Shown: positions 18,973 through 61,876 of the stretch, one piece after another | Layout of the letters: every line of letters starts with the position of its first letter | How positions within the stretch are numbered: the stretch's first letter is position 1 | Assembly (NCBI GenBank): GCA_004335835.1 | Contig: RWJK01001503.1 | Coordinates: forward strand, 86,094 to 150,093 | Direction of reading: 5' to 3' | DNA: 64,000 nucleotides | Origin: Scenedesmus sp. ARA3 | Lineage: Eukaryota; Chlorophyta; Chlorophyceae; Sphaeropleales; Scenedesmaceae | Position numbers and translations under genes: made by a program | The notes under the pieces: generated by a model | Database searches by the model: none | What the model saw: the letters and a program-made list of their open reading frames with translations, nothing else | What the model was told of the DNA's origin: nothing

Positions 18973-21900
18973 TCAGTCGAAGATGCGCTCCCCTGTGGCA
19001 AACAGGTTCCAGATCACAGTACCCACCAGGTACAAAATGACAGCCACCCGCCACACATCCGTCCAGGTGCCATGTGCCAGCAAATACCCAGTCGCCAGGC
19101 TGCCCAAAACCCCAGCCAGAACCCCGGCCGTGTTGCTAAGCCCCAGCAAAACCCCGGCGTAACGCGGGCCGATGTCTTGGTGGTTTGAGTACAGCCCGCT
19201 TTGGCTGAAGGCGTCAAAGCCTTGCGCGCCCATCATGCACGCGACAGCAGCAGGCAGCGTGGATACATTCTGCAGCTGCGTCAGGCAGAATGCAGGGCCT
19301 AGGAAGCCTAGGGTTTGCATGATCTTGCGCACTGCTGTCACACTGGTGCCGCGCTGCACGAGTGTGTCTGCGATCCAGCCGCCCACGTTTGCTGAGATGG
19401 CCATCGTCATCCACGGCAGCACCGAAAAGATGCCCGACTTGAAGATGTCGCAGCCCAGCACCTGCAGCAGCAGCAGCAGCAGCAGCATAATTTAATTGAG
19501 ATGGCCATAGTCATCCATGGCAGCACTGGAAAGATGCCTGACTTGGAAGATGTCGCAGCCCAGCACCTGCAGCAGCAGCAGCAGCAGCAGCAGCAGTGTG
19601 AGTTGGCTGAGATGGCCATGGTCATCCAGGGCAGCACTGAGAATATGCCGGACTTGAAGATGTCACAGCCCAGCACCTGCAGCAGCAGCAGCAGCAGCAG
19701 CAGTATGAGTTGGCTGAGATGGCCATGGTCATACACGGCAGCACCGAGAGGATGCCTGACTTGAAGATGTCGCAGCCGAGCACCTGCAGCAGCAGCAGCA
19801 GCAGCAGCCGCTGCTTACGCCACATACAAGGAGAGCCGCACAGGCGGTATGTAAACTGCATGCATTCTGCCGCGGCCCAGGGCGGCTGCCGCAAGCATGA
19901 CGCAACAGTGTTGAAGTGACAGGCCTGACCGCCCACCTGGTTGGCGTAGGTGGGCATCCACGTCAACAGGCATGCAGGCGCCATCTTGCAGGCGTCATCT
20001 AATCATAGGCTTTGAGAATGAATGACGCAAGAGTCGCACCGCCCCACCTGGTTGTAATAGGTGGGCATCCAGGTCAGCAGTATGAATGTGCCCCAGTTGT
20101 GGCAAAAGTGGCACACGATGATGGCCCACACCTCCTTGCGGCTCAGCAGCTTGCCCCAGGGGATGCTGCGAGTGGACTTGCCAGACACGCTGGTGTTGGC
20201 AAGGATGTACGCCTGCAGCAGTGACAAGCATTCACCATGAGAAATAAAGCCAAGACACTAGGAATACAGCCAGATTCTGGCTAACTTGCCAGACACGCTG
20301 GTGTTGGCAAGGATGTACGCCTGCAAGAATGAGTACAGTGGTGGCAGGGCTTGTAAGGCAGTGCAGGCAGTGCAGTGAGCATGTCGAATCCTTTATCTTT
20401 CCAGTGATTGCTTGCCCGACACTTGTGTTGGCCAGGATGTATGCCTGCACACAAGAAAGAGGCTGAATGCGAGTATTGCTGCATTTCACTTACACATACA
20501 GCTGGCCAGCTTCAGTTGCTGACTTGCTCGACACGCTCGTGGTGCCCAAAACACACCAGAAACTGCACACACTCCTAGATACCAGCAGCAGGCTGCAACA
20601 TGCGACACCTTGAGCACTGAAATCCAACAAGAGTCCCATAAACCCTCGCCAAACCCACAAAACCCTCCAGAAATGCATGAAAACCCTCGCACCTTCTCTG
20701 CGTTGCTGCACAGCGGGTCCTCCGAGGGTGTGCTCGCCGCCTTGCTGCTCCACAGCCCGTACCACAGCACGCCCAGGCTGCCAAAGCCATAAAACACGCT
20801 GGGCCAGCCCAAGGCCCCAATGAGCCCCGGGCTGAGGGCGAGGCCCGCGATGCTGCCGATGAACATGCCGCTGTACACCAGTGACAGCGAGCGGCTGCGC
20901 TCCGCAACCGGCACCCAGCTGCAGGCATACACCACATGGGGCACAGCAGGCGGGCAGAAGCAGGGGTGAGATGCATGATGCACGCGGAAGTGTGCATTTG
21001 AGTGACAGCCAGCGGCGGCACTCCGTGACCAGCACCCAGCTGCAGGCATTCCAATGCCCATCAGCTGCTGTACTACATGCTGCAGCTGCCGACATCACGC
21101 AGCATGTCATACATAACAGCCGCCGCTCCCTCACCGGCTGAGCAGGTTGTTCATAGCTGGCATAGCAACACCCTCCCCAATGCCCATCAGCGCACGCGCA
21201 GCCAGCAGCCAACACGGTCTGACCCACAAACACTGTTACTACTTGAACCCTGACCGGCTGAGCAGGTTGTTCATGGCCGGCATGGCCACGCCCTCTCCAA
21301 TGCCCATCAGCTGCTGTACTGCACACTGCAGCCGCCCAACACTCTGCACATGCAACCTAACAAAGCACAAAACCACTGCCGCTCACCGGCTGAACATGTT
21401 GTTGATGGCCGGCATAGCCACACCCTCCCCGATGCCCATCAGCGCACGCGCAGCCAGCAGCTGCACATTGTCTGAATTCACAAACACTGTTACTACTACT
21501 CAAACCCTCACCGGCTGAGCAGGTTGTTCATGGCCGGCATGGCCACGCCCTCTCCAATGCCTATCAGCTGCTCCACGCTGCAGCTGCCATAAGCAACATG
21601 TTCCTTGCAACAACGTAACAAACATAACAGCCACCGCTCCCTCACCGGCTGAGCAGGTTGTTCATAGCCGGCATAGCAACACCCTCCCCGATGCCCATCA
21701 GCGCACGCGCAGCCAGCAGCTGCACACACACACACACACACTGTCTGAACTCACAAACACTGTTACTACTATTCAAACCCTCACCGGCTGAGCAGGTTGT
21801 TCATGGCCGGCATGGCATCACCTTCTCCAATGCCTATCAGCTGCTGTACTACACGCTGCAGCCGCCCAACACTCTTCACATGTAACCCAACAAACCACAA

Positions 21901-22243
21901 AACCACTGCTGCTCACCGGCTGAGCAGGTTGTTCATGGCCGGCATGGCCACGCCCTCCCCAATGCCCATCAGGGCACGCGAAGCCAGCAGCGCCGGCAGC
22001 CCCATCTGCGCTGCAATCGGCGTGAAGGCAGTAGCCATGCTCCACCACACCACGCCAAGCCCCAGCACCAGCTTGCCGCCAAAGCGGTCTGCCCAGATGC
22101 CGCCAAGCACCTGAGTCAGCAGGTAGCCCCTGCAATGGCAGCAGCAGCAGCAGCAGCAGTGGTGAACACATGCCTAGCACCAGCTTGCAACCAAAACGGT
22201 CTGTCCAGATGGCACCCAGCACCTGAGTCAGCAGGTAGCCCCT

Positions 22244-22277
<34 letters not shown>

Positions 22278-23648
22278 TAAGGACATGCCTATCACCAGCT
22301 TGCTGCCAGAAGAAGCTGCTCTGCACCAGGCCAATGCTGCATTGCACACCACACCACGCTACAGCACCCCCGAAACAGCAATTCGCTGCAAACCCCACTG
22401 TGGTCAGTCTCATCAGTTCACCAGAAGAAGCTGCACTGCGCCAGGCCCGCCGTCTGCATGGAACAGCCGTACTGCAAGCGGCAACGAATTAAAAAAGCAA
22501 AAGACACAAACACCCCCAACCTGCTGCTCACTCACCAGAAGAAGCTGCTTTGCACCAGCCCCACCGTCTGCGTGGACCAGCCGTACTGCGCTGCCATGGG
22601 CAGCACCGCGATGCTCATGTTCACGCGGTCCATGTTGCACAGCATGAACGCCACAAAGCACAGCAGCACCATCGTCCAGCGCCGCCGCCAGCCAGAGATG
22701 CCCTCCAGGAACTGCAGCAGCAGCACACGAAAAGGACACAATTAGACAGTGTGGCACAGGCGAATGTATAGCAAGCAGATGCAGCCAGCCTGGCCCTGCA
22801 GCCAGCCAGGACCTGCAGCAGCACAGGCAGAAACAAAATGATGACAGGCATGTTGGCACATGGGGGGGCGTATGACGAGCAGATGCGGCACAGGCGTGCA
22901 GGCACACAGATGAACTGGGCAGCACGGCGCGACAGGTGCAGCAGATGTCGAGGAATAACTGTTGCGCCGCAACATTGCCAACCGGCCGGGAGGCCCGGCA
23001 GCGAGTGTTGCGCTGCAAGCGCGGCTGCACTGACACGTAACTGCCTGCATTAGGGCCCCAGTCCTGCATCTGCAGGAACTCCAACAGCAATGGGTCCTGC
23101 CATCAGCCATCAGCAACTGCTGTACATGCACTGGCATGCATTGCGCAGCACGCAGCTACTGCAAACAGCTTGCAGCTACAACACGTACAGCTTGCTAGTC
23201 ATTGCACTGCTGAGTAGGAGCATGCACATCAACCCACCTGAGGTTTAGGGTCTGCCAAGCCATCATCACCGCCTGCTGCAAATGTTGCACGCAGCGGCGG
23301 CAACCGCTGCCGCGCCGGACACTGCTGCTGCTGCTGCTGCCGCTGCTTGTGCAAGCTGCTCGACTCGCTACTGCTGCTGCTACTGCTGCTTGGCAGCAGC
23401 TGCTGCCGTTGCTGTGCTGCCTGCCACTGCTGCTGTGCTGCAGGCAGTGCTTGAAGACCGCCAAGCAACTGCCGGCCGTTGCTTTGGCTGCGCTGCAGCA
23501 CGCATGGCTGCAGAAAGTGTTTCGTGCTGCTGCTGCTGCTGCTGTGGATAGGCGACAGCAGTTTGCTGCTGCTGCTGCTGCCACTGCTACTGATGTTTAG
23601 TCCCGTCTGTGCTAAGCTGTGGCACCTGCGGGTGCTGGATGCCTGCAA
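18973..23648 (-). CDS. PHT4/SLC17-type anion (phosphate) transporter, probably plastid
   Basis: Major facilitator carrier. Core exons 22711-22536, 22129-21917, 20918-20693, 20212-20048 and 19461-18973 join in phase and end at TGA 18973. Seen: CNMDRVNMS in TM1, SSFFWGYLLTQ, the loop signature GGIWADRFGGK, the SLC17-type R.LMGIGEG, and GWPSVFYGFG. These match plant PHT4 carriers of phosphate (some ascorbate) in plastid membranes. Upstream exon 23648-23238 (137 codons, Ser/Gln-rich, ends at a good GTGGGT donor) looks like a transit peptide. A small exon near 23098-23040 (DPLLLEFLQMQDW) may link it, but its donor is unclear. Total about 560-580 aa, normal for the family. Introns are packed with partial exon copies (listed separately). 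Substrate is not inferable. Confidence 0.85.
19499..19782 (-). repeat. acceptor-side echoes of last PHT4 exon, 3 copies
   Basis: Three partial copies of the start of exon 19461-18973, each about 68 nt (VLGCDIF.SGI.SVLPWM), each preceded by a (CTG)nCAG acceptor. Copy starts are at 19565, 19675 and 19782 against 19461 for the real exon, so spacing is 104-110 bp. All lie upstream of the intact exon on its strand; none reaches a donor. Confidence 0.9.
19927..19968 (-). repeat. donor-side echo of PHT4 exon 20212-20048
   Basis: A copy of the exon's last 12 or so codons (LTWMPTYANQ) plus its GTGGGC donor, in the intron downstream of the intact exon. Confidence 0.8.
20284..20446 (-). repeat. acceptor-side echoes of PHT4 exon 20212-20048, 2 copies
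   Basis: Two copies of the exon start (AYILANTSVSGK, then the diverged AYILANTSVGQ) with their acceptors, at 20320 and 20444, upstream of the intact exon start at 20212. Confidence 0.85.
21000..21050 (-). repeat. acceptor-side echo of PHT4 exon 20918-20693
   Basis: A diverged copy of the first 40-50 nt of exon 20918-20693 with its CTGCAG acceptor, about 130 bp upstream of the real acceptor. Confidence 0.75.
21130..21855 (-). repeat. donor-side echo array, 6 copies in alternating A-B pattern
   Basis: Six copies of the 3' end of exon 22129-21917 (encoding GIGEG..MPAMNNLLSR) with its GTGAGC-type donor and some intron. Copies begin near 21130, 21251, 21381, 21507, 21641 and 21780; the intact donor is at 21916. 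Two sub-families alternate: type A carries CACGCGCAGCCAGCAGC after the shared core and type B carries CAGCTGCTGTACTACACGC-like sequence, giving an A-B dimer of about 250-270 bp. The copy at 21251 has a damaged donor. Confidence 0.9.
22143..22252 (-). repeat. acceptor-side echo of PHT4 exon 22129-21917
   Basis: A copy of the exon start (GYLLTQVLGAIWTDRFG) with a CAG-repeat-extended acceptor, upstream of the intact exon. A second fragment of the same exon (SKLVIGMS) lies at about 22273-22310, fused to a donor-edge fragment of the preceding exon. Confidence 0.85.
22424..22475 (-). repeat. donor-side echo of PHT4 exon 22711-22536
   Basis: A copy of the exon's end (AGLAQCSFFW) and donor, in the intron downstream of the intact exon; a shorter trace is at 22310-22335. 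Confidence 0.8.
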
Positions 23649-27084: not shown

Positions 27085-27872
27085 TCACTCTGCATGGTGA
27101 TGTGGCGCATATGCCTTGATCTCCACAGTGCCTAGCAGCTCCTGCTGCTTGCCATCCGCACTAATGCGCAGCTGCTGCCGCTGCTTCTCCTTCAGCTGCT
27201 GCAGCTCCGCCACACCCTGCTGCTGCTGCTGCTGCTGCTGTTTGGCGCCAAACATCATCTTGTACGCGCCCTTCGCAATCTTGACAAACCACATCGTGTT
27301 GAGCGCCAGCAGCAGCAGCGGCACACCCAGCAGCATCGCAACTGCGTGTGGCGGCTCCTGAGCAATTATGCGCAGGTTTTGCAGGACGTGAAGGTAGAAT
27401 GGCACAAACATTGCCACACGTGCCACACCCCACACCAGCAGCATGAGCAGCCCATTGACTTGATACAGCTTCAAATGCTTCAGCTGCAACCGATCCAATG
27501 CCCATCGCAGATTCACAAAAGGTGTAGTAGCCTCGGTAAGCAGCACCATCAGCAGGTACACATGCAGCGACTGCACTTGTGCAGCAACTGCCAGTGACAG
27601 AAGCGACACCACATGGTGGATGTACATCTCCTTGCTGCCGATCTCTGTGTGCCAGCAGATCACACAGAAGTCCACCAAAAAATAGCCGGCTGAGATGCCC
27701 AGGATTGCATATGAAAGCTCGCTGACGCGCAGCACCACGCTGCTGCTGCTGCTGTTGCTGCTGTCGAAGAACTCGCCGCTGTAGCAGAGCGCCCACAGGC
27801 ACAGCGCAGTGACCAGCACTGCATGCAGCGTGCTGGGCAAGCTGCACACAGCAGGCAGCAGAAGTTGATGGA

Positions 27873-27906
<34 letters not shown>

Positions 27907-30951: not shown

Positions 30952-37170
<6,219 letters not shown>

Positions 37171-39827: not shown

Positions 39828-42800
39828 TCACATGTAGCCGTGGTGGTGTCCGTGGCCGCCGTGGTGTCCGTTCTCGTCCAGCTCATCGTCGTGGCCATCG
39901 CTGGCGTAGCTCATGCGCGGCTTGTTCTGGGAGAGCTTCTCGCTAATCATGGCAGCCGCCAGCTGGATGGCTGCGTAGGAGCCGCTGATGGCAACCTCAC
40001 GCTCGTGTGTGAGCGGGTCCATCTTGTTGCGGTCGCTGATCTTGATGGTCACCTTGGCGTTCTGCGCGCAGCAGCGTTTACATAGTTACACAACAGGTCA
40101 GTACCACAAGGTGGTGATATGGGGGCAGGACGAGCATGTGCTCGTGCGTGAGCTGGTCCATCTTGTTGCGGCGCTGATCTTGATGGTCACCTTGGCGTTC
40201 TGCAGCCAGCACGACGGCGCAACAGGTGGTATGTTGGCATATCAGCACAAGCACACGCATAACAGCACACAAATCCCAAGCCAACGCCCACCTGCAGTAT
40301 CTGCGCCAGCGTCTGCGCTCTTGTGCTTGGCATAGCCCCGCTCTACCCCCGCACACGCGACAGCCCCCCTCAACCAACGCCCACCGGCTACGTATGCGTC
40401 ACTGATTGCCCATTCTTGCCCAGCACTGCGACAGCACACAAACAGTAGAAAGGCCCACCTGCTGTATCTGTGTCAGCGTCTGCCCCCTTCTTGCCCAGCA
40501 CCCACTCTGATAACATAGATACAACGCCAACCAAAGCGCACAGCGCACCTGCTGTATCTGCGTCAGCGTCTATCGCTTCTTGCCCAGCACTGCGCCAACA
40601 CAGGCACAGAGCAGCACACAAAGCAGCACAAACAACCCTAGTTGAAGCCCACCTGCTGTATCTGCGTTGGCGGCTGCCCCTTCTTGCCCAGCACTGCGAC
40701 AGCACACACAAACAGTAGAAAGGCCCACCTGCTGTATCTGTGTCAGCGTCTGCCCTTTCTTGCCCAGCACCGCCCCAACAGCACACACAGCAGCACACAC
40801 AACCGGCCGATCTGCGGACTGCTTCGCTGAAATGCTTTGTGAACATGCTTGCAAACAAACTGCATTTCTGCTGTCAACAACCCGACCCAAGGCGCACCTG
40901 CTGTATCTGCGTCAGCGTCTGCCCCTTCTTGCCCAGCACCGCGCCCACGTCCTCGTCCTGCAGCGCCATCAGCAGCGTGGCCTTGGCCCCCGCCAGCACG
41001 CTGCGCGCGGTGCTGGTGCGCACCGCGGGGATAAGGCCCTGCGTGTTGGCCAGCTGCAGGGTGAGGTCCATGTAGCTGCCAAACTTGTCGTCAGCAGACA
41101 GCTGCAAGGTAAGAGATAGAAGACAGCAGCAGCAGGCAGCAGCAGTGGGGTCAGCAGCAGCAGTGTGGTCAGCTGCAGGGTGAGGTCCATGTAGCTGCCA
41201 AACTTGTCGTCAGCGGAGAGCTGCAGGGGCAGCAGGAAAAGCAGCAGCGGCAGCAGCAGCGGGGTCAGGTGCAGGGTCAAGTCCATGTACTGCCAAACAC
41301 ATCAACGTTGGGCAGCTGCGGCACAGCAACAGTAGCACAAGGCGTCGAATGTACGAGCAGCTTCAACAGTAGGGCAAGCTGCAACCATAGTGCGCGCAGC
41401 CCTCTCCTTTTGGACGACATCGGCATAGCATACAGCACGGCACCTGCTGCCAAAAACATCACCCTGCACCAGCCTCAAGTTGAGCTGCCTGCTCATCATG
41501 AGCGCCACCGCAGGCAGCACTATGTTTCACAAGAAGCGTACAGCACAATGTGCGCTGCTGGACCACCAAGCGCACCTGACACACGTTACACATTAAACAC
41601 TGCATGCTCCCAACTTATTCGGCATGAGCGCTGCAAACAACAGCACCAAATCGGTTCAGTACACGCCGCCCACCGTGTTGAGGATGAGCGCCACTGCGCG
41701 CAGCACCTTGTCCCGGCCGCCGCTGACGCTGATCAAGCGCTCGCTGTCGCTGGGCGTGAGCTCGCTCAGCGGCTGCACGCGGATGACTGCGCCGCTGTCT
41801 GCCATGAAGTCGCGAATGGTGGCGCCCTTCTGGCCGATGACCGCGCCGCACAGCTTGCGGGACACCGCCATCTTCACCTGCGCGTGCTGCAGACGAGCAA
41901 AGAAATGGGGCAAGTGTGCGAGAGGGTGGGTTGAGTAGGTGTTTGTGTGGTGTTGCGTGCGGTGCAACCTGCTGCAGGAGGTTAGGGAGGCCGTTTGAGA
42001 AGTGTTGGGTTTTATAATGCGAGGGTGGGTAGCATGCAGCCGCTGTCTGCCATGAAGTCGCGGATGGTGCGCCCTTCTGGCCGATGACTGCGCCGCACAG
42101 CTTGCGCGACACTGCCATCTTCACCTGCGCGTACTGCAAAAGAGCAAAGAATTGCGGCAGCAAGGCGGCAATGGCGAAGAGGGTGGCCTAAGGTTTCATG
42201 TAACAATGTGTGCTGCACATGATGAATTGCGGCAAGGCAAAGAACGGCACAGAAAGGGTGAGGCACGGGGAGCTGCTGCCGCTGCTGTTGTTACACAGCC
42301 CACAGGACGCACCATGCAAGTTGCACATCTGTACTCTGTCACCACATTTTGCTTGCTTAGTGCTACCATCGTTGTTGCTGCTGTTGCCGCTGCGTCGCAT
42401 TTGCTGCTAGCACATCCAGCCCAGTGCTGCTGTGGCTACGCTGCTCACCGCATCCTCCCTGGGCTTGCCAGCTGCCCTGCCCATGGCCATGACAGGCTCC
42501 TTGGGCAGCTTCTCCAGCATGAGGAACACGGAGGTCAGCACCGAGTGCAGCGTACCGGACAGCAGCAGCACACGCTCAGACGTGCCTGCAGGACAGCAGC
42601 AACAGCAGAAGCAGCAGCGTAAGGTTTATGCACGCCCTGATCAGTTCTGAGCGGACAGAAAATGAGACAGATACACAGAGTAGCTTTTATTGGTGTATAC
42701 TCGTAATATAGCTGTGAACTAGGCTGCTGACAGGGAGGACGACAAGCAAACTTGCCTGGGTAGAACTCGCCCGCACGGGACAGCTGCACACGTGCGCCCG

Positions 42801-45049: not shown

Positions 45050-45143
<94 letters not shown>

Positions 45144-48100
45144 GGCCTCCTGCAGGTGTCAGCTGAGCTGGAGGCTGCCACTGCTGCTGGGCTGCTGGCG
45201 GGTGACGGCTACGCACTCTACCTGCAGGCGCTGCTGGCGATAGAGCAGTGAGCAAAACTGCTGTGTGGTGTAGCTGGTGCGTGTTGCTACTGTGTGTGGT
45301 GTTGTGCCTGCAGGCATTGCTGGCATTAGAGCAGTGAGCCGTTGTTAATCATCGGGTTGATGATGTTGTTAGTGTCATAGCAATGCACAGCGGTGAGCTG
45401 ATGGCACTGCAGCCCTCGGGTCAAGTATTTTGGCATTGAAAGCAAGAGTCAGGCACCAGCGTGTTGAGTGGGAGCACCGCCCATTTGCACACGGCTACAA
45501 TCTGCTTGCTACTGCTGCTGCCGCTGCTGCAGGGACCACAAGCCCTGGGCGAGGCAGCTGCTGGTGCAGAGCCTCAACGCATGCCCCTGCCACTGGGGCG
45601 CATGGCAGGTGAACACAACAAAAACAGCATCGTCATCACCAGCAGCAGCATGAGCCGGAGCAGCTGAAGCACCGCTGGGGCACCGCTGTGCTATCTCAGC
45701 TGCATGAGCACTTGTTGCAGGGAATGGCGAATTCATGTTGAACACAAGATCCTGCCGGTCTGGCTAGCATGCACATGGCCAGCCCAGCAACGCCGCCAGC
45801 AGTCTGTATTGAAGTCACCATATGTCTTGACTGTTAACCACAAGATTGTTGTCACATTGTCACATTTGACACAGGCGCTGACAGGGCTGTGTGAGGACCT
45901 GGAGGATGTGTCCCGCCTGGCGCTGCCCGGCCACTGGGCGCGCCACTTCTTCCTGGCGGCGCTGTGCCTGGAGCTGCAGCATAACGCGGAGGCACTGAGC
46001 AGGCTGCAGGTCATCAACCAGGTGGGTTATGTGTGGCTTGCTGTGTCTGGTGTGCTTGATCAACCTCTGGTTGTGTGCAAGCAGGGAGCTGCAGCACAAC
46101 GCTGAGGCACTGAGCAGGCTGCAGTCCATCAACCAGGTGGGCAAAGGGTTGTGTGGTCTGTGCTTGCTTGTGGCACGCGCCACTTCTTCCTGGCGGCGCT
46201 GTGCCTGGAGCTGCAGCACAACCTGAGGCGCTCAGCAGGCTGCAGGTCATCAACCAGGTAAGCATAAAGGCTGTGCGGTCTTTGCACGTTGCTGTGAACT
46301 TGCTGCGCTGTGCCTGGCGCTGCAGCACAATGCAGAGGCACTGAGCAGGCTGGAGGTCGTCAACCAGGTGGGTTATGTGTGGCATGCTGTGTTTTGTGCG
46401 CTTGATGAACCTCTGGTTGTGTGCAAGCAGGGGGCTGCAGCACATTGGGGAGGCAATGAGCAGGCAGGTCATCAACCAGGTACACCAGGAACAGGTTGAC
46501 ACACTTCAACCCTGGCTGCATGCCGCACTGGCGCAGTTCAACCTGCTGTGCTGTTCATTGACAGCTGTATGTGGTTGTCCTTTTGCTGCCTGCAGCTCGT
46601 CCCTGGCAGCGACTGGGTGGCCGCCAATGCAGCTCTGGCGCACTGAACATATGCAGCTCTGTCTACGGCTAACATCCTGCTGCTGTCCTCGATCTTTTGC
46701 AGCTCTTCCCTGGCAGCGACTGGGTGGCTGCCAATGCCGCGCTGGCGCACTACAACATGTGCAACCTTGCTGACAGCTGCTGTATGTGTGTCTCATCTGT
46801 CCTGCATCAACACGCTTTTCTGCCCTGCAGCTGTTCCCTGGCAGCGACTGGGTTGCTGCCAACGCTGCGCTGGCGCACTACAACATGCGCAACCTGGCTG
46901 ACAGCTGCTGTATGTGTGTATCATCTGCCCTGTGCTGCATCAACACACTTTTCTGCCCTGCAGCTCTTCCCTGGCAGCGATTGGGTGGCCGCCAATGCTG
47001 CGCTGGCGCACTACAACATACACAGTTCTCTCAACAGCTAACACTGTGCTACTGTGTGCATTGTCGAACCTCGATCTCTCGCAGCTGTTCCCTGGCAGCG
47101 ACTGGGTTGCCGCAAATGCCGCCCTGGCGCACTACAACATACGCAGCTCTGTCTCCTGCTAACATCCTGCTGCTGTCCTCAATCTTTTGCAGCTCTTCCC
47201 TGGCAGCGACTGGGTTGCTGCCAACGCCGCGCTGGCGCACTACAACATGCGCAACTTTGACGAGGCGCAGGCGCTGTACGAGGACCTGCTGGCACGGGAC
47301 CCTGCACGCTTGGCGGTGAGTGCCTGTTGTTTGCGATTTTTTGGTGCTTAGCTGCTGTTTCAATGCCACTGCAACAGCCGGTGGTGATGATGTGGCATAG
47401 GCGCAGCAGCTCCTGGTGCCTCAATGCGAGTTCAATGCGAATCAATTCCTGGCACACAGCGCAGGGCATGGACACCCACAGCAACATCCTGTTTGACATC
47501 AACTGAACCTGCAACGACACGTTTTGATATGCTTTGTGTTGCACCACCACTGTGCAGGGCATGGACACCTACAGCAACATCCTGTTTGTCAAGGAGGCGT
47601 TTGCGCCGCTGAGCCACCTGGCGCACCGCCTGGCGGGCAGCGACAAGTACACGCCCGAGGCCTGCTGCGTGATTGGCAACTACTACAGCCTCAAGGTAGG
47701 CACTGGCACAGGCTGTAGCTTGGTATTCTGGTAGCTTTGTTGCTCTTTGGCTCTGTGGCTGTGGATTCTGTATGAGAACTTGCCTGTCAGGTTGGCAACT
47801 ACTACAGCCTGGGCAGTTTGGTGATATAACCTTTGCCTGTGTTCCAAGGAGGAAGGCAGTGCGGGCTTTGTGTAGGTTACATGCACGTCAGTCTGGCAAC
47901 TGATACTACAAGCTTCAGAGGGGTGGTTTTGCGGTTATGATGATCTGTCTATTTGATCGCCAGTCGATCTAGCGTCTGCTACATTTGGTAATACTTGGAA
48001 GGCCTGAACCCCAACCTCGAGCTTTAAGCGGCCCCTCAACAACCCTAACCCGCGCGCCATCAGCAGGGCCAGCACGAGCGGGCAGTGAAATACTTCAGGC

Positions 48101-51054
48101 GCGCGCTGTGGCTGAGCCACAGCCTTGTGCGCTTGCTGACAAAGACATTAGAGCTTGATCCAACATTAAAACTTTATACACTTGCAGGGCCAGCACGAGC
48201 GGGCAGTGAAGTATTTCAGGCGCGCGCTGTGGCTGAGCCACAGCCTTGTGCGCTTGCTGACAAAGACATTAGAGCTTGATCCAACATTGAAACTTTACAC
48301 ACTTGCAGGGCCAGCACGAGCGGGCAGTGAAGTACTTCAGGCGCGCGCTGTGGCTGAGCCACAGCCTTGTGCGCTTGCTGACAAAGACATCAGAGCTTGC
48401 TCCAACATTATAACTTTACACACTTGCAGGGCCAGCACGAGCGGGCAGTGAAGTACTTCAGGCTCGCGCTGTGGCTGAGCCACAGCCTTGTGCGCTTGCT
48501 GACACAGACATTAGAGCTTGCTCCAACATTGAAACTTTACACACTTGCAGGGCCAGCACAAGCGGGCAGTGGAGTACTTCAGGCGCGCGCTGTGGCTGAG
48601 CCACAGCCTTGTGCGCTTGCTGACAAAGACAGTAGAGCTTGATCCAACATTAAAACTTTACACACTTGCAGGGCCAGCATGAGCGGGCAGTGGAGTACTT
48701 CAGGCGTGCGCTGCGGCTGAGCCGCACCTACCTGTCCGCGTGGACGCTGATGGGCCACGAGTACGTGGAGATGAAGAACGCACCCGCAGCCATCGGTGAG
48801 CTGCTGTACATGGCTGCACTACTGTGCTAATGTACTGTTGATGTGATTTGGGCTGCTTTCTCCCAGATTTTCATGCGGAGGCCTATCGGTTGGAACGCTT
48901 GAGTCTAGACAGCTACCAACGTGAAAGCTGAAAGCATGTGGTGCTTGCACATGCCCTTTGGGACATCCTCGGGTGCAGGGCTAACAGTCTCCCACCCTTG
49001 CCGCATGCCGCTTGTGTGCAGATGCATACCGCTCCGCTGTTGCGCTCAACCCGCGCGACTACCGCGCGTGGTACGGCCTTGGCCAGACCTACGAGCTGCT
49101 CAGCATGCCCTTCTACGCGCTGCACTACTACAGGTAGGCATCCACTTCTTCATTAGAACGTTTGTTACATGCGTTATTTGCGGACAAATGGCGCTGCTGC
49201 GGCCTCTAAACCTGCGCATGTGGAGCGTGCTGGCCACTGCTGCTAGGAGGGCCTGGCGTCCTTTGTCGATGCCTTCACTGCGTCTCAGCTGTTCTCCACT
49301 GCCCTTCCTCCTCCCTGCCTGCAGGCGTGCTGCACTGCTGCGCCCCAGCGATCCCAGGATGTGGGGTGCGTTGGGTCACTGCTATGAGAGCTAAGGGCTG
49401 TCACCTCAAACCCTAACGCCTGCACTGTGTCTGAAACTGCCGCTGTCCCTCCGTACAGGCGTGCCGCACTGCTGAGGCCTTCAGACCCACGCATGTGGTG
49501 CGCGCTGGGCCACCGCTACGAGAGCGATGGGCCTGACAGCCCTACACCGTGACACCTGCACTGACACGAAATCCTCTGCTTCTTAATATCTTTCCTCCTG
49601 CAGGCGTGCTGCGCTGCTGCGCCCTTGTGACCCAAGGATGTGCTGCGCCCTGGGCCACTGCTATGAGAGCGAGCGGCTGTCACCCCAAATCCTAACACCT
49701 GCACTGTGGCTGAAACTGTCGCTGCCCCTTTGCAGGCGTGCTGCACTGCTGAGGCCGTCAGACCCACGCATGTGGTGTGCGCTGGGCCACTGCTATGAGA
49801 GCGAGGGGCTGGGCCTGCCAGGCCTGGCGGTGCGCTGCTACAGGAGGGCTGTAGCACATGGCGATCGAGAAGGCATCGGGCTCGCAAAGTTGGTGAGCGA
49901 GGCTGTTTTGCTTTTGCTGCCCAGTCATTGGAACTCTGCCAGTGGAACATTGGTGGCAGTGGCGCGTGGCGACCATGACTCACGGCAGCACCGTATTGCT
50001 TGGTGCTCATAAAACAGCACAGCAAGGTACCGCTGCTGCTGCTGCAATGCAATGCAATGCAATGCATTGCAATGCAGGCGAAGCTGCACGAGGCGCAGGG
50101 CGAGCGCTCCACTGCTGCACACTACTGCGTGCTCAACCTTGGCAACATCATGCTGCTGCTGCTGCTGCTGTGCAGGCGAAGCTGCATGAGGCGCAGGGGG
50201 AGCGGGCCACTGCCGCGCACTACTACGCGCTCAACCTGGCGCGGCTGGATGCTGAGCGGGTGCAGGGCGGGGACGTGACGGAGGCGCTGCTTTTCCTGGC
50301 AGAGTATGCAAAGGTGGGATCAAAAAAAGCGGTGCAGTTCGGAATGAAGTATAGAATAGCAGGGTGTTCCTGGCAAGTTGCACAGGATGTATGAACAGGA
50401 ATATGAACATGCACAGGAAATTGGGGCGCAGCCGGCGCGCTCCGTGGCCTTCACTACGGTCATGCAATTGTTCCTTCCTTTGTGTTGACATGTTGGAGGC
50501 GCTGCTGTTCCTGGTAGAATACGCAAAAGTGTGAACCATGGCATGGGAGTAGGAATATGACTAAACTGCGGTGTTGGTCCTTTTCACCGGGCACGTTTTG
50601 GTGATGTGACGGAACCGCTGCTGTCCTGGCGCAGTACGCAAAGGTCGGAAAACAATGATCAATGAACAGGAGTTGGTAGATGGCTATGGTGTCGGTCAGG
50701 ACTTCGAAGATTGACATGGTGTCATTCTCTGTTACAGTGACGTGAAGGATCCGCTGCTGATCTTGCAGGTTATCCAAAGTGCGGCAATTGCTGCGTTGAG
50801 GTTGGGCACAGATGCATTGTGTGTGACTGCCAGGATGTAGGCGAGCCTGCAGTGGCGGCTGCCTGCTGCTGTCGAGTGTGGTTTGTTTGTTGGCATCAAG
50901 CCACAACCATCTCTCAGCTGCTGCTGCTGCTGCTGCAGCTGCTGCTGCAGGACATGGGCATGTTGGCAGAGGCTGAGGCCTACTGCCAGCGCCTGATGGA
51001 TGTGGGGGGCCCAGCCAACATGTTGCCGCTGCTGCTGCTGTTGCTGGCTGCTGC

Positions 51055-51087
<33 letters not shown>

Positions 51088-51158
51088 AGGACATGGGCAT
51101 GCTGGCAGAGGCTGAGGCCTACTGCCAGCTCCTGATGGACGTGGGTGGCCCAGCCGAC

Positions 51159-51189
<31 letters not shown>

Positions 51190-51473
51190 AGGACATGGGC
51201 ATGCTGGCAGAGGCTGAGGCGTACTGCCAGCGCCTCATGGACGTGGGGGGCCCAGCCAACATGCGAGCCAAGGCCATCCTGCGGGAGCTGCGCAGCAGCC
51301 GCAGCAGCGCAGCAGCAGCAGCAGCAGCAGCAGCGCAGGCGGCTGGCCTGGTGGCAGCAGCAGCAGCAGGGACTGGCGACAGCGGCAGGGGCAGGGCGGT
51401 GCTGGGGGCTCGGAGGGTGCTAGGGGAGGCCACTGGCAGCAGCTCGTGGCTATCTCAAGCTGGTGCGGCACCC

Positions 51474-51505
<32 letters not shown>

Positions 51506-54026: not shown

Positions 54027-54062
<36 letters not shown>

Positions 54063-57000
54063 GCAGCAGCACCGCTGGCAGTGGTTACAACTTGGTGCTC
54101 AGATTGCAGTGGAGCTGTGTTGTCAGCAACAGCAACAGATGGAGGGAAAGAAAATGCACAGCAGAAGCAATAAGGACGATCAGTCAGTTTTTCAGACAGT
54201 GCTGGGTGGTGGTTCTGCCAGATACATCAGCTTCATCGCATCTCTGGCGAAGCAGCAGCAGTGCCAGCTGCTGCAAAGTTGCCATTGCATGCAGCAGCAA
54301 CTGCTAACTCTATGCCTCACTGTCTCCCCTGCAGCTGCAAGTGTGGAAGGCCACCGTGTACCTCACGCCACTGCTGGGAGGCTACCTGGCTGATGCAGGT
54401 GGGTAGACACAAAAGTTGCTGTTTTGCCCTGTTGCATGCAGCCACTGTCGCATGCAGCCACTGCCCTGTTGCATGCAGCCACTGTGTACCTCACGCCACT
54501 GCTGGGAGGCTACTTGGCTGACGCAGGTGGGTGCAGACCTTGGTTGTGCAGATGCCGTCCTTTACCTCCTTTAAATCAGCACTCAACTTTGTTAGCCGCT
54601 GCCCAGAGCTTGGTTCACACGACTGTTAACCCCATGAAACTGACTTAGCAGAAGGTCTACCTACTTGCTGAGCCAACTGTCCCTGGCTTGAACTTTGGAT
54701 TAAAAGTCTGCTGCCTTCTTATTATGCATCTTTGCCCTGTGCTGAGCCATCTGCTGAGCCAAGACACCATTGGTTTAAACTGCTGTGCTGTATCCTGCTG
54801 CATGACTGTGCATCGTTTCACTGTCATGCAGTCATGGGTAGGTTCTGGGTCATCCTGGTCTTCAGCATCGTCTACTTTGTGGTAAGTGGAACAAGGCTGA
54901 TCAATAACAGCGAAAATTACCACAGAAACACTGAGTACTGACTGAAGCAGCCCTGTCACCTTCAAGCATGACACAGAAGATGCAGCTGCCTGCAACTGGC
55001 AGATGAGACACTATATCAACAAGCACCAGCAACATGCTTTCTGGCCGTTCAGTGGCCAGCAAGTTTGCAGCCACACACCATTGCGCTGCCTCTTGGGGCC
55101 AATGACGTTGATGCTATGGCTTGATGTGTAGCATGATGATGATGACCATTGCAAGGCCCCTTAGATGGCACATCACACACATCATTGCATTATAACATGT
55201 TATTTAACATGTTACATCCCGCAGGGCATGCTGGGCATCACGCTGGTGAACCTGCTGCCCCAGATCCGGCCGCAGCGCGATGCAGCGCCCCCAGCAGGCC
55301 TGGCCACCACGCAGGCTGTGTTCTGGGTGTTCATGTACCTCACAGCGCTGGGTTCTGGAGGTATTAAACCCTGCGTGAGCAGCTTTGGAGGGGACCAGTT
55401 CAGGGAGAGCAGCGCAAGAGAGAGGTGGGCGTGCTTGCTGCATTTCAAATGCACGACACAGCAGCAATTAGAAGGCAGCTTGGAGCATTGACATGCGTCA
55501 GCAGCTTCGGACAAGGACCAGGGTGTTTGGTGTTCTGGGTGTTCGTTTACTTTACTGGGTAATGTACCTCACAGCGCTGGGTTCTGGTGGTATCAAACCC
55601 TGCGTGAGCAGCTTTGGAGGGGACCAGTTCAGGGAGAGCAGCGCGCGAGAGAGGTGGGGGGGGTGTTTGGTGTTTGTTAGCATGCTGAAGTGTGCATGTG
55701 ACTGGCGTGGAACGGCAGCGTGCTGAGCAAGGCTGATTTGCTGCCTTAGTAGTGTTCGCACGCAAGTGCCTCTTGCTACGATAGGGGGTTGACAGTGTGC
55801 TGAGTTTGCCACTCACATTTCCTGCTGTGCCTGCTGCAGGAGCTGGCGTTCCAGCTTCTTCAACTGGTGAGCCTGACACAACCTGCTGAGCAGGGTGGCT
55901 GGGGAGCCTTGCAGCTAGGCGCTGGTCAGCCTGGCAGCAGCTGAGCACAGCGAATTCATCAGGCTTCCAGCAAAACAAGCAGCAGCAACAAGCAAGCAAG
56001 CAGCAGCAACACAGCCCCTTTTGCCAGCAAAGGCACGCAGCTGCTGCCTCGCAGCTGTGACTTCTGCCAATACATATATGATACACACGCGCTGACCAAC
56101 TGCTGCTTCTGCTGATGCTGCTGATGCAGGTTCTATTTCAGCATCAACATTGGAGGTGAGACTTGATGTGGGAGGGGAAGCAAGCAGCGGGATATTTTTG
56201 AGATGAGGGTGCTGGCTGCCTCTCTTCCCAACAGCACAGCCACATCATAGCCACAGCAACTGCGTGTTGGCTGGTACTTCTCAGGCAGTGCTACATTTGC
56301 ATGCATCGTGCACAGCTTCTTTACGCATGCCCAACACACCATATGCTGCACATTCAAGAGCGCATGCAGCATTTGCGAGTGTGCTTTTACGCTCTAGATC
56401 ACCTGTCATTGCTGATACCGCTGTTTCTGCTGCCTCGCTGTTTCCTTGCACTGCATACTATGCACACGCACTTGGCATCCTGCAGCACTGGTGAGTGTGG
56501 GCTGGTGTTGCAGCAGCTCAGAGGCATGGCCAGCAGCAACCATGCAGCAGCACAACCTCGCATTCATTTAGTAGTGAGGCGGCCTTACTAATCTTGATTA
56601 CGTAGCGCATGGTGGTGCAGTTCAACGTCGCACATAGGGATGAGCTTGGTGCAGCGCTTCTGAGCAGCAATGTGTGCCAAAGCACCACATGCTGAAATGT
56701 AGATGTTTGATAAGACACTCGGTACATTCTGCAAACTCAGATGCATGCATTGTGTGCTGTGCAGGCCAGCCAGTGTCTGTTGCGTCAAGTCCCCCTGTCC
56801 CCCTTCCATATGGTACAGAAACACACCTATGCCTTGTCACCTGCAGGTTGCATCAACTGTAGTAGTTGGTGTGCAGGAGAGCAAGGGCTATGGGGTGGGC
56901 TTCGGCATCCCCACCATTGCCTGACATAAACCCACAACAACAACATTTTGTTTTGCCTGCAGGTTGCATCAACCGTAGTAGTGGGTTTGCAGGAGAGCAA

Positions 57001-60000
57001 GGGCTACGGTGTTGGCTTTGGCATTCCCACCACTGCCTGACATGAACCCACAATAATAACAATTTGCTTTGCTGCAGGTTGCATCCCCTGTTGTGGTGGG
57101 TGTGCAGGAGAGCAAGGCTATGGTGTTGGCTTTGGCATTCCCACCATTGCCTGACATAAACCCACAATATCAACAATCTGTTTTCCTGCAGGTTGCATCC
57201 ACTGTTGTGGTGGGTGTGCAGGAGAGCAAGGGCTACGGTGTTGGCTTTGGCATTCCCACCATTGCATTTGGTGTGGCCATTGCCATGTTTGTGGCGGGCG
57301 CCGCAGCCAACCTGTACGTGCGCGTGCCGCCAGAGGGCTCGCCCTTCAGCCGAATTGGCAGGGTACTGAGAGGTGAGGGGTGCAGGCGCATTTCAGCTTC
57401 ACTCTGTGTGATGTTTGTGGCGGGCGCCGCAGCCAACCTGTACGTGCGCGTGCCGCCAGAGGGATCACATTTTTCACACCTCGGCAGGGTGCTGAGAGGC
57501 GAGTTACATGGCTGGTGTTGAGTTTCAGTGCGTGACATGCAGCAGCAGTCTGGTTGATGAGAAGGACGTTCTGTGTGCGGAAGAACTGGCCCGTCCTCTT
57601 CAGTCGCAGTGGCAGAGTGCTGAGAGGTGGGTGGTATGGTAGGCTTTCAGCTGCTGTCTACACACATGGTCAGCTGCTGTCCACACAGATGATCAGCTGC
57701 TCTTCATACTTCTGGTCAGTTGCTGTTTTGCTGTCCGCAGGCGCCTTCACCAAGCGCCAACTGATCCTGCCTGCTGATGCCGGCCAGCTGCACAACCCCG
57801 AGCCAGGCACTGCGCTGCTGTTTCTACTGATGGTCAGCTGCTGTTGTGCTTTTTTGTATGCGTCTGCAGGCGCCTTCACTAAGCAGCACCTGAGCCTGCC
57901 TGCTGATGCCGGCCAGCTGTCAGCAGCATACAGCAGTACCTGTAACCAGTTGTCTGCCCTCGGTTCTGCCTGCCACAGGTGCCTTCACCAAGCGACATCT
58001 GAGCCTGCCGGCTGATGCCAGCCAGCTGCACAACCCCGAGCCAGGCACAGATGGAGCACTGCCATACAGCATGCCCCACTCACAGCGCATGAAGTGAGCC
58101 GCATTTTGAATACGCCAGAAGATGCTGGCAGCCTGATACTCTGTCGAATCGTCACACACCGCAAACCAGGCTCGTAAACAGTCTTTACAGTAAGACAGGC
58201 ATGCTCTTTTTGCATCTTGCTTGGCCTGGCAAGGCGTATGCTGTGATCTTGTTGCCAAATGCACTGTGATCACGTAATTTACATATGCTGCACACCTTTC
58301 CTGTGTTGCAGGTGCCTGGACAAGGCTGCCATAAAGAGTGAGGCGGGGCCTCAGGTCACACTCACAGAGGTGGAGGAGAGCAAGGCATTCTTCGGCATAC
58401 TGCCGCTGTTCCTGTGCATCTGCATCTACCAGATGACATACGTGAGTGCGGTAGCGCTTGAAGTTGTAGTAGCAAACATTGCTGTGCTTGTGCAATCAAC
58501 ACGCCACGAGCATATATGCCTGCCCCACTTCTACATCCTCAAATCATACAGCAGGTAAGGACACCATGTAATGGTTGATGTTGCATTCCAGTCCGCTGTG
58601 CTTCAATCAAGTGACAGCCGTAAAGGATGTGCATACAAAGCACACTGCTTTGCTGTTCCTGTGCATCTGCATCTACCAGATGACATATGTGAGTGCGGCA
58701 GGCACTGGTTTAGAAGTTACAGAGCAGACATATTGCTGTTCATCTGCATCTACCAAATGACTTATGTGAGGGTGGCAGGCGCTCACTTGCAGCACCTGAA
58801 GCAAACAGTGCTGCTGTGGATGCACAGTAACAGGTTAAACACATGAGTGTTCTGATGTGTGACAGTCACTGCAGAGTTCCATGCGGCATGGGGCAGCTGG
58901 TGGTGATGCGACTTGCAGTGTTTGCTTCATCCCACAAAACGTCATCAGTATGCAGCAGGTGCTGCTGCAGCACCTGCTGCAGCAACTGCTGCAGCCACTT
59001 ATACTTCTGTGGCCTGAAGCTGAATACCAATGCTTCGCTGCCATACCTGCAGGACCCCATCTTCACTCTGTTACCATACCCCGGTGATGCAATGGACCGC
59101 AGCATGGGCGCCACACATGTCCCTGCCTCATCTATCAGCTGTGCCAATACCTGTGGCGTGCTGAAATCTCAACATGACTGAAACCTGCTGCTGCTGCTGC
59201 TGCTGTTTCTCTTGCAGGACCCCATCTTCACTCTGTTACCATACCCCGGTGACGCAATGGACAGGTCCATGGGCGCCACACAGGTGCCCGCATCTTCCAT
59301 CAGCTTTGCCAACACCTTTGGCGTGCTGTTCACTGTGGTGGCGTATGACCTGGCGCTGGTGCCGCTGATGCAGCGGCTGCGGCGGCCCATCAGTATCACC
59401 TGGAGAATCGGGCTGGGCTTTGCTATCCAGGTGAGGACTTCTTTTGCTTCTCTTGTGTGTTTATGAAGATTGATGTTTATGAAGACAACATTGTACAGCC
59501 GGTATGGGTAGCATACACGGAACAGGGCTCGCGCAGCTGCAGTTCTGTGAAACAAAAGCAGCCAGGCAAATGCGCCATGCACAGATTAGGCTGCTGCTGA
59601 CGCACTGCAGTGCATCTAGTGCCAAAATGACTGAACAAGGTCTGACTGCTCATGAATTACTTCATGTGTTGCTGCTCCAGGTGCTGGCGCTGGTGAGTGC
59701 TGCGCTGATTGAGATGGCTACCATGTGGTGCTAGACTCCTCCCTGGCCAAACCCTAACCCTGCCTCTTGTGCTGGTGTTGTGCTGCACTGCCTGTAACAG
59801 GTGCTGGCGCTGGTGAGTGCTGCGCTCATTGAGATGGCTCGCTACCGTGTGGTGCGTGAGTCTGGGCTGCTGGAGCGCTTCCTGGCTGCTGGGCCAAAAG
59901 CAGACCCCCTGGACCCTCTGTTCACACAGCCCATGAGGTGAGGTGTGAGGTGCCTTTGCAAAGTGCATCTGAAAACTGTCTCCGTGGCTGCATGCTCTGT

Positions 60001-61876
60001 CTTTTTGGACAGTGAAATATTAAGTGCCTTCACTCGGTGTGCAGTGCTTGGCATGTGCTGGCTGGTATTCTGCAACAGGGTCATCTGCCGCCACATATCA
60101 GCACCGCCTTTCTGTATTGCCGAAAGTGCTGCCGCTGCGTGCACTCGCTTGCTGCTGCAGCATCTGGTGGCAAGCCATCCCTTACTTCCTGCTGGGAGTG
60201 TCAGAGGTGGGTTAGCGGTTGCACATCAAGCGGCTGCTGATGCTGCTGCTGTAGTGTGTTGGCGGTGCAAATAGTAGTCTTCTGGCCACGACGGTACAGA
60301 TTCAAATTGTGCTGTACATCAGGTTTGACGTCAATGTCGACATAGTCATGATGGCTGACCAACTAAAAGTTTTCTTGTGGCAACTCGCCGCTGAGCAGCT
60401 TAAATTTTCTTGTGGCAACTTGCCGCTGAGCAGCTGACACATGTTGTGCTTATGTGTTTGTGCTTGCTCTGCTGCAGGTGTTCACCAACATTGGCTGCAT
60501 GGAGCTGTTTTACACACAGGTAAGGGACAGTTGCTTTGCAAACAAGGGTCGAAGGAACAGAATCAGGCCCCTCGTGGCAGCAGATCATGGCCTGCTGAGT
60601 GCCTCTGCAGCATCTCCACCCCTACTGGAGAGAACACCTAGCCGGCAGGCTGCTCACCATGGCTGCTCACCATGGCTGCCCTTCCTTTTGACGGTACCTA
60701 ACATAAACATCCTAAGCCATCAACCAACTAATCATTGATTATCTGCAGGTATTCTGAGGCATGCTCCTGATGGGTGCCAGCATGTACCTGATCCTTGTCA
60801 TTGCTGTTAGGGTGTGCACTTTGAGCCTCAATGAAAACATGAAAGCAAGCAAATGCCAAATAAAGTGACTGCTACACTGTAGGTCTCTGACGGCATGCGC
60901 TCCCTGGGCGGGAGCGTGTACCTGCTCACGTTGCCTGCCGCCAGGCTGTTCCACCCTGAAGAGGCATCCTCTAACTCTGGTGAAACTTTGTTTCCCGCAG
61001 GTCTCTGAAGGCATGCGCTCGCTGGGCGCCAGTGTGTACCTGCTCACGGTTGCAGTTGGCACCTACCTGGCCAGTGGGCTCAACGTGATGGTGGCTGCCG
61101 CCTCACCACACGACACATGGGTGTCAAACAACCCACTGCTCGGACACTACGACTGGTGAGAGCTGTGAATAGGGTTTGCAGCAGGTTTCATGCAGCTGGG
61201 ATGTTGCTGCTGGGTGGCTGCTGCCTCGCCTCACGACACCTGGGTGTCAAACAACCCACTGCTTGGGCACTACGACTGGTGAGAGTTGTGGCTGAAAAGT
61301 TGATGTTATGCACATGCTGTGCCTGCTATTGTTTGAAAAACCCTATGTGACCGCCACACACTGGGCCAGTGGCGGTGGCTGCTGCCTCGCCGCATCACAC
61401 CTGGGTGTCAAACAACCCACTGCTTGGACACTACGACTGGTGAGAGCTATGAATAGGGTTTGCAGTTGTGTACTGCTCCAGCACATCTGCATGCCATGTT
61501 ATTCTGCTGCAGGCGGCTCAGCTGCAGGCGATCTTCTGTCCCGCAAGTCACAATCTGTACTGTAGTATCATATACATGTATGGCATAAATAATGCTGTTT
61601 CATGCGTCGCAGGTACTTCTGGTTGAATGCGGGCATCCTGGTGCTGGGCCTGGGCCTGTACATCATCGTGGCACATATAACCAACATGTGCTGTATCTTC
61701 TTATGTACCTCCTCATATGTCTGATGCATGGCAGGTACTTCTGGCTGAATGCGGGCATCCTGGTGCTGGGCCTGGGCCTCTACATCATCGTGGCACGCAG
61801 CTGCGGCTACACAGACAAGGGGGCAGCAGCACACCGCAAGGCGCAAGCCTGCGACCAGGGCACCAAGGCAGCTTGA
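53191..61876 (+). CDS. proton-coupled oligopeptide/nitrate transporter family (POT/NPF) protein
   Basis: Eighteen exons: 53191-53383, 53630-53648, 53938-54022, 54335-54398, 54832-54881, 55225-55424, 55840-55866, 56130-56155, 56486-56490, 57192-57372, 57979-58093, 58312-58441, 59218-59430, 59801-59937, 60161-60206, 60478-60519, 61001-61155, 61735-61876; 1830 nt, 609 aa, phases consistent. Family marks: ExxER (NELCERLAFYG) for proton coupling, [45 protein letters not shown] and [18 protein letters not shown]15/NPF carriers import di- and tripeptides or, in plants, nitrate and other anions with protons across plasma or vacuolar membranes; substrate is not inferable here. The N-terminal 60 residues are acidic and cytosolic. 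Exons of 19, 27, 26 and 5 nt are very small, and eleven sets of exon-edge echoes crowd the introns. Confidence 0.93.
53630..53648 (+). other. 19-nt microexon (exon 2 of POT gene)
   Basis: Lies between GGTGCTGCAG and GTGAGT. It supplies G(NELCE)R, the ExxER proton-coupling motif; flanking phases 1 and 2 fit exactly. A CTG tract ends about 17 bp upstream. Confidence 0.92.
54479..54528 (+). repeat. donor-side echo of POT exon 4
   Basis: About 46 nt repeated ([14 protein letters not shown]) with the GTGGGT donor, 130 bp downstream of the intact donor. Confidence 0.92.
55563..55653 (+). repeat. donor-side echo of POT exon 6
   Basis: About 90 nt of the exon end ([17 protein letters not shown]..) are repeated almost perfectly with a GTGGGG donor, 229 bp downstream of the intact exon. 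Confidence 0.93.
56486..56490 (+). other. 5-nt microexon (exon 9 of POT gene)
   Basis: CACTG sits between a consensus acceptor (CATCCTGCAG) and a consensus donor (GTGAGT). Exon 8 ends in phase 1 after ATTGGAG and exon 10 starts in phase 0 at GTTGCATCC. Direct joining gives the wrong frame. Insertion of these five bases restores INIGALVASTVVV, the conserved family sequence. Confidence 0.88.
56843..57170 (+). repeat. acceptor-side echoes of POT exon 10, 3 copies
   Basis: Copies start at 56847, 56963 and 57078, intact exon at 57192: spacing 116, 115 and 114 bp. Each keeps an acceptor and about 75 nt ([20 protein letters not shown]) and ends in an ATTGCCTGAC stop-containing junction. Confidence 0.95.
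57411..57628 (+). repeat. donor-side echoes of POT exon 10, 2 copies
   Basis: First copy 57411-57497 ([18 protein letters not shown]) has its donor changed to GCGAGT; second, shorter copy ends at 57628 before a GTGGGT. Both are downstream of the intact donor at 57373. Confidence 0.88.
57737..57950 (+). repeat. acceptor-side echoes of POT exon 11, 2 copies
   Basis: Copies start at 57741 and 57870, intact exon at 57979 (spacing 129 and 109 bp); each encodes GAFTK.(Q/H)[10 protein letters not shown] after a TGCAG or CCGCAG acceptor. Confidence 0.92.
58650..58772 (+). repeat. donor-side echoes of POT exon 12, 2 copies
   Basis: Copies of the exon end ([11 protein letters not shown]) ending at 58688 and 58765, each with a GTGAG donor. 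The intact donor is at 58442. Confidence 0.88.
59050..59165 (+). repeat. acceptor-side echo of POT exon 13
   Basis: About 110 nt ([20 protein letters not shown]) with a CTGCAG acceptor, starting at 59053, 165 bp upstream of the intact exon. It is one of the longest echoes and could be a cryptic alternative exon start. Confidence 0.92.
59678..59735 (+). repeat. acceptor-side echo of POT exon 14
   Basis: [14 protein letters not shown] repeated at 59681, exactly 120 bp upstream of the intact exon at 59801, with a CCAG acceptor. Confidence 0.9.
60880..60945 (+). repeat. acceptor-side echo of POT exon 17
   Basis: [16 protein letters not shown] at about 60883, 118 bp upstream of the intact exon at 61001; its acceptor is CTGTAG. 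Confidence 0.9.
61205..61441 (+). repeat. donor-side echoes of POT exon 17, 2 copies
   Basis: Two copies of the exon end ([20 protein letters not shown]) with GTGAGA donors ending near 61278 and 61440. The intact donor is at 61156; the second copy's downstream intron also resembles the intact one. Confidence 0.92.
61610..61677 (+). repeat. acceptor-side echo of POT exon 18
   Basis: [20 protein letters not shown] repeated at 61613, 122 bp upstream of the intact terminal exon at 61735; the echo then runs into a stop. Confidence 0.92.

Follow-up and report, generated by a model that had tools for sequence, protein, structure and literature searches.

The stretch of DNA analysed here (the window) comprises 64,000 nucleotides of contig RWJK01001503.1 from Scenedesmus sp. 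ARA3, positions 86,094 to 150,093 of the forward strand in assembly GCA_004335835.1, which totals 87.3 Mb in 1567 contigs. Three of its genes were modelled by hand, all with open frames. The PHT4-like (MFS) gene lies on the minus strand (18973..22711) and has five exons, at 22536-22711, 21917-22129, 20693-20918, 20048-20212 and 18973-19461; MFS_1 Pfam matches were seen in two ORFs, one over and one under the curated cut-off. On the plus strand, the APC8 (CDC23) gene (45875..51302) has eight exons, at 45875-46021, 47193-47315, 47558-47695, 48672-48795, 49022-49133, 49736-49892, 50176-50313 and 51192-51302, and the POT (PTR2) gene (54335..61876) has 15, with a frame open to the stop and a PTR2 Pfam match in one ORF. 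One of these 15 is a 5-nt exon, CACTG, at 56486-56490 (plus strand), which is required for an open frame between the exons at 56130-56155 and 57192-57372. Two minus-strand genes were modelled after these three and keep the names given by the original prediction. The b561-type gene (33323..34606) has three modelled exons with open frames and splice sites (34426-34606, 34023-34109 and 33323-33465) and gave no Pfam match for the single ORF tried. In the KH gene the end of exon 3 was wrongly set, and only its first 130 nt entered the analysis.

To identify duplicated exon ends, each exon edge was searched against its own intron with a score cut-off of at least 36; the top score in 250 background searches against block-shuffled introns was 28. 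In PHT4, APC8 and POT this recovered 58 truncated copies, distributed over 27 of the 50 splice sites and all placed within introns by the gene models. Acceptor-edge copies lie upstream and donor-edge copies downstream of the intact exon, as originally predicted, and 38 control searches on the wrong side in the same genes found no copy. Fifty copies start exactly at the exon edge and the other eight 1-7 nt inside it. The splice dinucleotide is kept in 55 of the 58 (AG/GT in 53, GC in two). No copy covers a whole exon, so that the two splice sites expected of a tandem exon duplication are not found. The b561 and KH genes contribute another 16 copies once three matches away from the exon edge are excluded, all 16 with AG, GT or GC at the splice position. 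The total of 74 over five modelled genes is close to the roughly 80 counted by eye in the original prediction, and the copy-to-copy step, with a median of 121 bp and 52 of 58 values in the range 90-145 bp, agrees with the spacing given there. Six genes had been named; the five that were modelled bear the claim out, and the sixth, a TLC gene for which no model was made, shows a single repeat pair (27811-28024).

In PHT4 (all on the minus strand), the edge search placed three acceptor-edge copies at 19497..19783, upstream of the exon at 18973-19461, in steps of 105-110. The exon at 20048-20212 has two acceptor-edge copies upstream (20284..20444), the inner one identical at 37 of 37 positions, and a donor-edge copy downstream (19937..19969). 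A single acceptor-edge copy lies upstream of the exon at 20693-20918 (21001..21039) and another upstream of the exon at 21917-22129 (22173..22241). The latter exon is followed by six donor-edge copies (21135..21840), among which the classes of adjoining intronic sequence alternate, as comparison of these sequences showed. Two donor-edge copies lie downstream of the exon at 22536-22711 (22307..22475). The b561 and KH arrays are also on the minus strand. In b561, two acceptor-edge copies lie upstream of the exon at 34426-34606 (34644..34839; 8 synonymous and 1 nonsynonymous difference in one, 10 and 2 in the other) and two upstream of the exon at 33323-33465 (33511..33768; 5 and 2, 7 and 2). In KH, five donor-edge copies lie downstream of the exon at 40898-41101 (40292..40779), and an acceptor-edge copy with 4 synonymous differences, no nonsynonymous difference and one indel lies upstream of the exon at 41674-41886 (42039..42132).

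The APC8 arrays, found by edge search on the plus strand, begin with four donor-edge copies downstream of the exon at 45875-46021 (46085..46479). Acceptor-edge copies then lie upstream of the exons at 47193-47315 (five, 46596..47151), 47558-47695 (one, 47465..47498), 48672-48795 (five of period 121, 48067..48605, also reported by TRF), 49736-49892 (three, 49325..49679, plus a decayed fourth at 49191-49256), 50176-50313 (one, 50078..50139) and 51192-51302 (two, 50951..51162), and donor-edge copies of the exon at 50176-50313 lie at 50487-50527 and 50600-50643. In POT (plus strand, edge search) there are three acceptor-edge copies in steps of 114-116 upstream of the exon at 57192-57372 (56847..57150), two donor-edge copies downstream of the exon at 61001-61155 (61213..61439; 6 synonymous and 0 nonsynonymous, 6 and 4) and one acceptor-edge copy upstream of the last exon at 61735-61876 (61613..61674). 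A published protein, jgi/Sobl393_1/8739/SZX78120.1 (P0017), which we take to be from Tetradesmus (Scenedesmus) obliquus UTEX 393, is 100% identical to our hand-spliced APC8 over 61% of the model length. For the APC8 exons within its reach it contains the innermost copies, in line with the prediction that only these rebuild the protein. P0017 terminates at ..ALHYYR, at the exon just before the array (window 49133-49736) that lies upstream of the exon at 49736-49892, and other gene models of this genome may likewise be cut short by echo arrays.

Self-alignment shows that local direct repeats dominate the window as a whole. Self-BLAST gave 99 direct and four inverted pairs. In 96 direct pairs the two members lie within 1 kb of each other, with a modal offset of 100-125 bp, and three are at least 3 kb apart. 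Local direct repeats cover about 12.6 kb, or 20% of the window. Introns with copies have a median length of 582 bp (n=18) compared with 263 bp for those without (n=7), and the arrays, summed out to the outermost copy, occupy 7334 of 12857 intronic bases. In these genes TRF reports arrays with periods of 102-139 bp that have the head-to-tail order and constant period of minisatellites, although the intronic filler between the exon edges is unalignable in 38 of 56 copy-exon pairs. The step of about 120 bp (median 121) is narrow and alike in donor and acceptor arrays across positions 18973-61876. Outside the modelled genes, a direct repeat of period 238 bp and 2.6 copies at 783-1397 is possibly a further exon-edge array.

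The geometry of the arrays suggests how they might arise. A stretch of about 120 bp that includes a splice junction would be duplicated in tandem; the outer copy, consisting of the splice site and a truncated edge, would be absorbed into the intron, and only the inner copy would stay joined to the remainder of the exon. Copies would then be found only on the intron side, because a junction-spanning tandem duplication leaves just this outer product, and duplications lying wholly inside an exon would alter the protein. The one-sided orientation thus requires no special mechanism and is no evidence for a border-seeking process. The proposal that copying is seeded at exon borders is accordingly not established, as junction-spanning duplication gives identical geometry. 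Purely intronic local repeat pairs number 0 of 28 in the three modelled genes, compared with 35% of placements expected for a 121-bp unit. This deficit fits a border bias, yet quicker decay of such pairs could explain it, and faster loss of similarity in unconstrained copies accounts for at least part of it.

A more specific alternative is that a splice-directed copying process, for example an RNA-templated one, inserts edge copies terminating precisely at the splice consensus, beside new filler. The absence of purely intronic repeats is as this would predict, and the fillers bear on it directly. We defined filler as the intronic half adjoining the splice site and based both this comparison and the copy-to-copy comparison below on the 56 of 58 copies that lie within 3 nt of the edge. 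Filler scoring above 24 was called related, a lenient threshold given that mismatched flanks reach 44, chiefly from CTG-rich ends. By this measure filler is related in 18 of 56 copy-exon pairs (mean identity 0.84) and unalignable in 38, at nearly equal exon-part identity (0.906 and 0.894, respectively). The 37-nt identical copy at PHT4 exon 4 also sits beside unrelated filler, in an intron without another genomic match. Several cases are odd in this respect: APC8 exon 3, PHT4 exon 4 and the outermost APC8 exon 4 copy, whose exon part is 95-98% like its neighbours and whose flank is not.

Against new filler, simulations that gave filler the synonymous divergence and a data-derived indel rate showed all 56 pairs together to fit co-inherited neutral decay (mean p 0.49; five below 0.05 against 2.8 expected). 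Seemingly unrelated fillers also retain weak similarity across 22 arrays (p 0.009 global, 0.034 local). Taken alone, the 38 unalignable pairs have edges too similar for such filler (Fisher p 0.0002; five of 38 below 0.05), in a subset that is biased because it was picked for low filler scores, and with synonymous divergence inflated the discordance vanishes (p 0.35; two discordant pairs). Given the few synonymous sites per edge, the fit of the simulation and the weak residual similarity, most of the "unrelated" fillers are probably decayed relatives. The decay simulation mostly removes unalignable filler as proof of special insertion, and we regard splice-directed copying as distinctly unlikely.

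The main point, which the original prediction overlooked, is an apparent protein-level constraint on the intronic copies. To exclude the contribution of the coding exon, copies with alignable filler were compared only with one another (eight groups, 20 copies). Variable sites number 30 of 134 synonymous, 16 of 370 nonsynonymous and 76 of 379 filler positions, giving rates of 0.224, 0.043 and 0.201, so that nonsynonymous variation is about fivefold lower. The nonsynonymous/filler ratio is 0.22 (bootstrap 0.11-0.36) and the synonymous/filler ratio 1.12 (0.62-1.91). By codon position the variants fall 8/6/32. Random mutation would give a synonymous share of 0.27, and constraint confined to the coding branch one of about 0.42; the observed share exceeds both (against 0.268, p 6e-8; against 0.425, p 0.0016). 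Exon halves, scored against the coding exon, carry two indels and fillers 19 in these groups. With the filler threshold raised to 44, above every mismatched flank pair, six groups and 15 copies remain, with rates of 0.235 synonymous, 0.039 nonsynonymous and 0.149 filler. Filler mismatches are even across the four bases (0.135-0.149), which makes base-specific mutation bias an unlikely cause of the fivefold difference.

Comparison of copies with the coding exon gave 207 synonymous and 133 nonsynonymous differences, or 145 and 112 when each change is counted once per array. The b561 and KH copies differ from their coding exons at 51 synonymous and 19 nonsynonymous sites; ungrouped pairs of copies from these two genes show a weaker excess (37 synonymous on 160 sites, 34 nonsynonymous on 415). 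Neutral-looking copies do exist, at PHT4 exon 3 (1 synonymous, 5 nonsynonymous) and PHT4 exon 1 (2 and 5). Outermost copies have 0.60 indels each (n=15) compared with 0.19 in innermost copies (n=26), and their nonsynonymous load is alike (0.047 and 0.042). Taken together, this is a strong sequence signal of what appears to be protein-level purifying selection on intronic copies. Judging from the gene models the copies are probably unexpressed, and their constraint is that expected of silent coding cassettes.

How might such constraint be imposed? Read-through translation of the arrays was rejected, on step lengths (remainders 0, 1 and 2 after division by three in 18, 24 and 16 of 58) and on in-frame stops, present in 21 of 23 units on the donor side and 15 of 35 on the acceptor side. 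A second possibility is that copies are used in mature mRNA through alternative splicing and selected directly. Such use would be in keeping with the codon-level constraint and with the 55 of 58 copies whose splice dinucleotide could still function. It is nevertheless improbable, because every one of the 58 is a truncated copy detached from the remainder of its exon; the same in-frame stops count against it, as do steps that are divisible by three in only 18 cases. Without read-through, and with direct use unlikely, the constraint needs either a recent coding past or a recurrent move into the coding slot.

Under a recent coding past, the copies would be edges of diverged haplotypes, or of a hybrid parent, joined in tandem by unequal crossing over. 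The constraint would then predate their intronic state and no ongoing exchange would be required. Orthologous coding edges should show just this combination of low nonsynonymous variation and synonymous variation equal to that of filler. The explanation nonetheless requires haplotypes about 20% diverged at neutral sites, and arrays of several copies that share their steps and carry private changes would have to arise many times, which makes it an unlikely source of the signal.

We instead favour a recurrent move into the coding slot. In this model, the edge copies and the coding exon edge would form one recombining pool from which damaged copies are purged. Following the junction-spanning duplication described above, the filler would diverge freely and the exon half and splice site would persist, as seen in the arrays, where the synonymous sites of exon halves vary about as much as filler and the nonsynonymous sites about one fifth as much. 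Unequal exchange or gene conversion would bring an edge into the coding slot, together with its splice site and the filler beside it, frequently enough for selection to act against damaged copies, and the same edge-to-edge exchange would grow and shrink the arrays. In PHT4 exon 2 and APC8 exons 1 and 2, the edge of a copy can be nearer to that of a differently fillered copy than to one sharing its filler; the coding edge of PHT4 exon 2 has filler in common with the copy at distance 530 and an edge nearest to the copy at 662. Among informative site pairs, 18 of 44 are incompatible, which compared with tree-only simulation gives p 0.027 at divergence 0.3, 0.09 at 0.5 and 0.17 at 0.8. Neighbour tests for exchange detected nothing in the four arrays to which they could be applied. 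The mosaics and incompatible pairs are only suggestive of exchange between edges, as homoplasy could yield incompatibility at the higher divergences. We would back the full model about as readily as we would doubt it.

A step close to a short-read length would fit an assembly artefact in which divergent haplotypes or reads were falsely joined in tandem. In the cases inspected, however, no shared overlap was seen where edge meets filler, the period-121 array bears private differences, and PHT4 exon 2 contains two-unit super-repeats. An artefact of this kind seems highly improbable.

Beyond the window, local direct repeats were present in 14 of 19 stretches sampled, and one of the remaining five was all N. 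Offsets of 100-150 bp are the most frequent there, followed by a smaller peak at 225-275 bp, and two pairs are inverted. Nineteen pairs from other contigs, chosen for identity of at least 89% and a block below 0.8 of the offset, were read by eye; many show the same exon-edge pattern, in what is a selection and not a count. An annotation-free test for splice motifs at repeat edges was negative on other contigs (7 of 61 pairs, interior-position mean 7.1) and in the rest of the window outside the three genes (1 of 18 against 1.6), and gave 9 of 28 against 2.7 inside them. Its cut-off is strict, as each member of a pair had to exceed the 10th percentile of 25 true acceptors or 25 true donors, and most known cases were missed too. 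Of 111 repeat pairs, four that were more than 50% low-complexity had been set aside. The original prediction of a genome-wide habit is partly supported: the repeats and the cases read by eye agree with it, but the automatic test does not. Mismatch phase was also assessed on other contigs without gene models, excluding pairs with few mismatches or short segments. With triplet-rich repeats excluded, 98 of 161 mismatches from 24 pairs fall in the best phase (null 82.3; reached in 0 of 5000), and when all types are taken together (41 pairs) 232 of 418 fall in one phase (null 197.3). Both values exceed chance, in support of codon-level constraint. One sampled array (L018:1998-2792, minus strand) differs from the others in having a frame of 265 codons that runs uninterrupted across alanine-rich filler, and might be translated. 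More tentatively than for the arrays themselves, and at somewhat less than an even prospect, we propose that partial exon cassettes across the introns of this genome are kept coding-competent by selection, never translated in place and rotated into coding position by in-array exchange, with intron growth as a by-product.

Several known systems resemble these arrays in part. Tandem exon duplication, as in mutually exclusive exons, also places extra exon sequence beside the original, but the algal copies are truncated, lack one end and cannot replace the exon as they stand. Introner elements generate intron sequence through repeated copying across a genome. In contrast, no shared element was seen here and the copies are specific to the adjoining exon; the one intron searched genome-wide, in the PHT4 exon 4 region with the 37-nt identical copy, matched only itself, unlike an introner element. 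Silent gene cassettes, such as those of VSG or pilin genes, are kept coding-competent by gene conversion. The algal copies are likewise partial coding copies, apparently unexpressed and under coding constraint beside one expressed site; they differ in lying within introns of the same gene, product diversification is established only for the known cassettes, and exchange here is a conjecture drawn from the arrays. Tandem duplication is also a known source of intron sequence, and the potato RdRp gene (PMC4974935) carries a within-gene tandem duplication of an intron-exon stretch in which parental splice signals are reused, as in the alga. Unlike that case, the algal copies lie inside existing introns, leave the product unchanged, form arrays of 1-6 copies in several genes and show codon-level constraint. 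Judged by titles and abstract openings, with incomplete coverage, we found no description of exon-edge copy arrays in several genes with codon-level constraint.

For annotation, these arrays are a practical hazard, as edge copies resemble exons, and the APC8 protein in the database stops just short of an array. If the model is correct, in-gene exchange becomes measurable by comparison of strains, and intron lengthening would have a route outward from exon borders. More broadly, these algal introns would contain DNA on which selection acts at the level of the protein although it is not translated where it lies.
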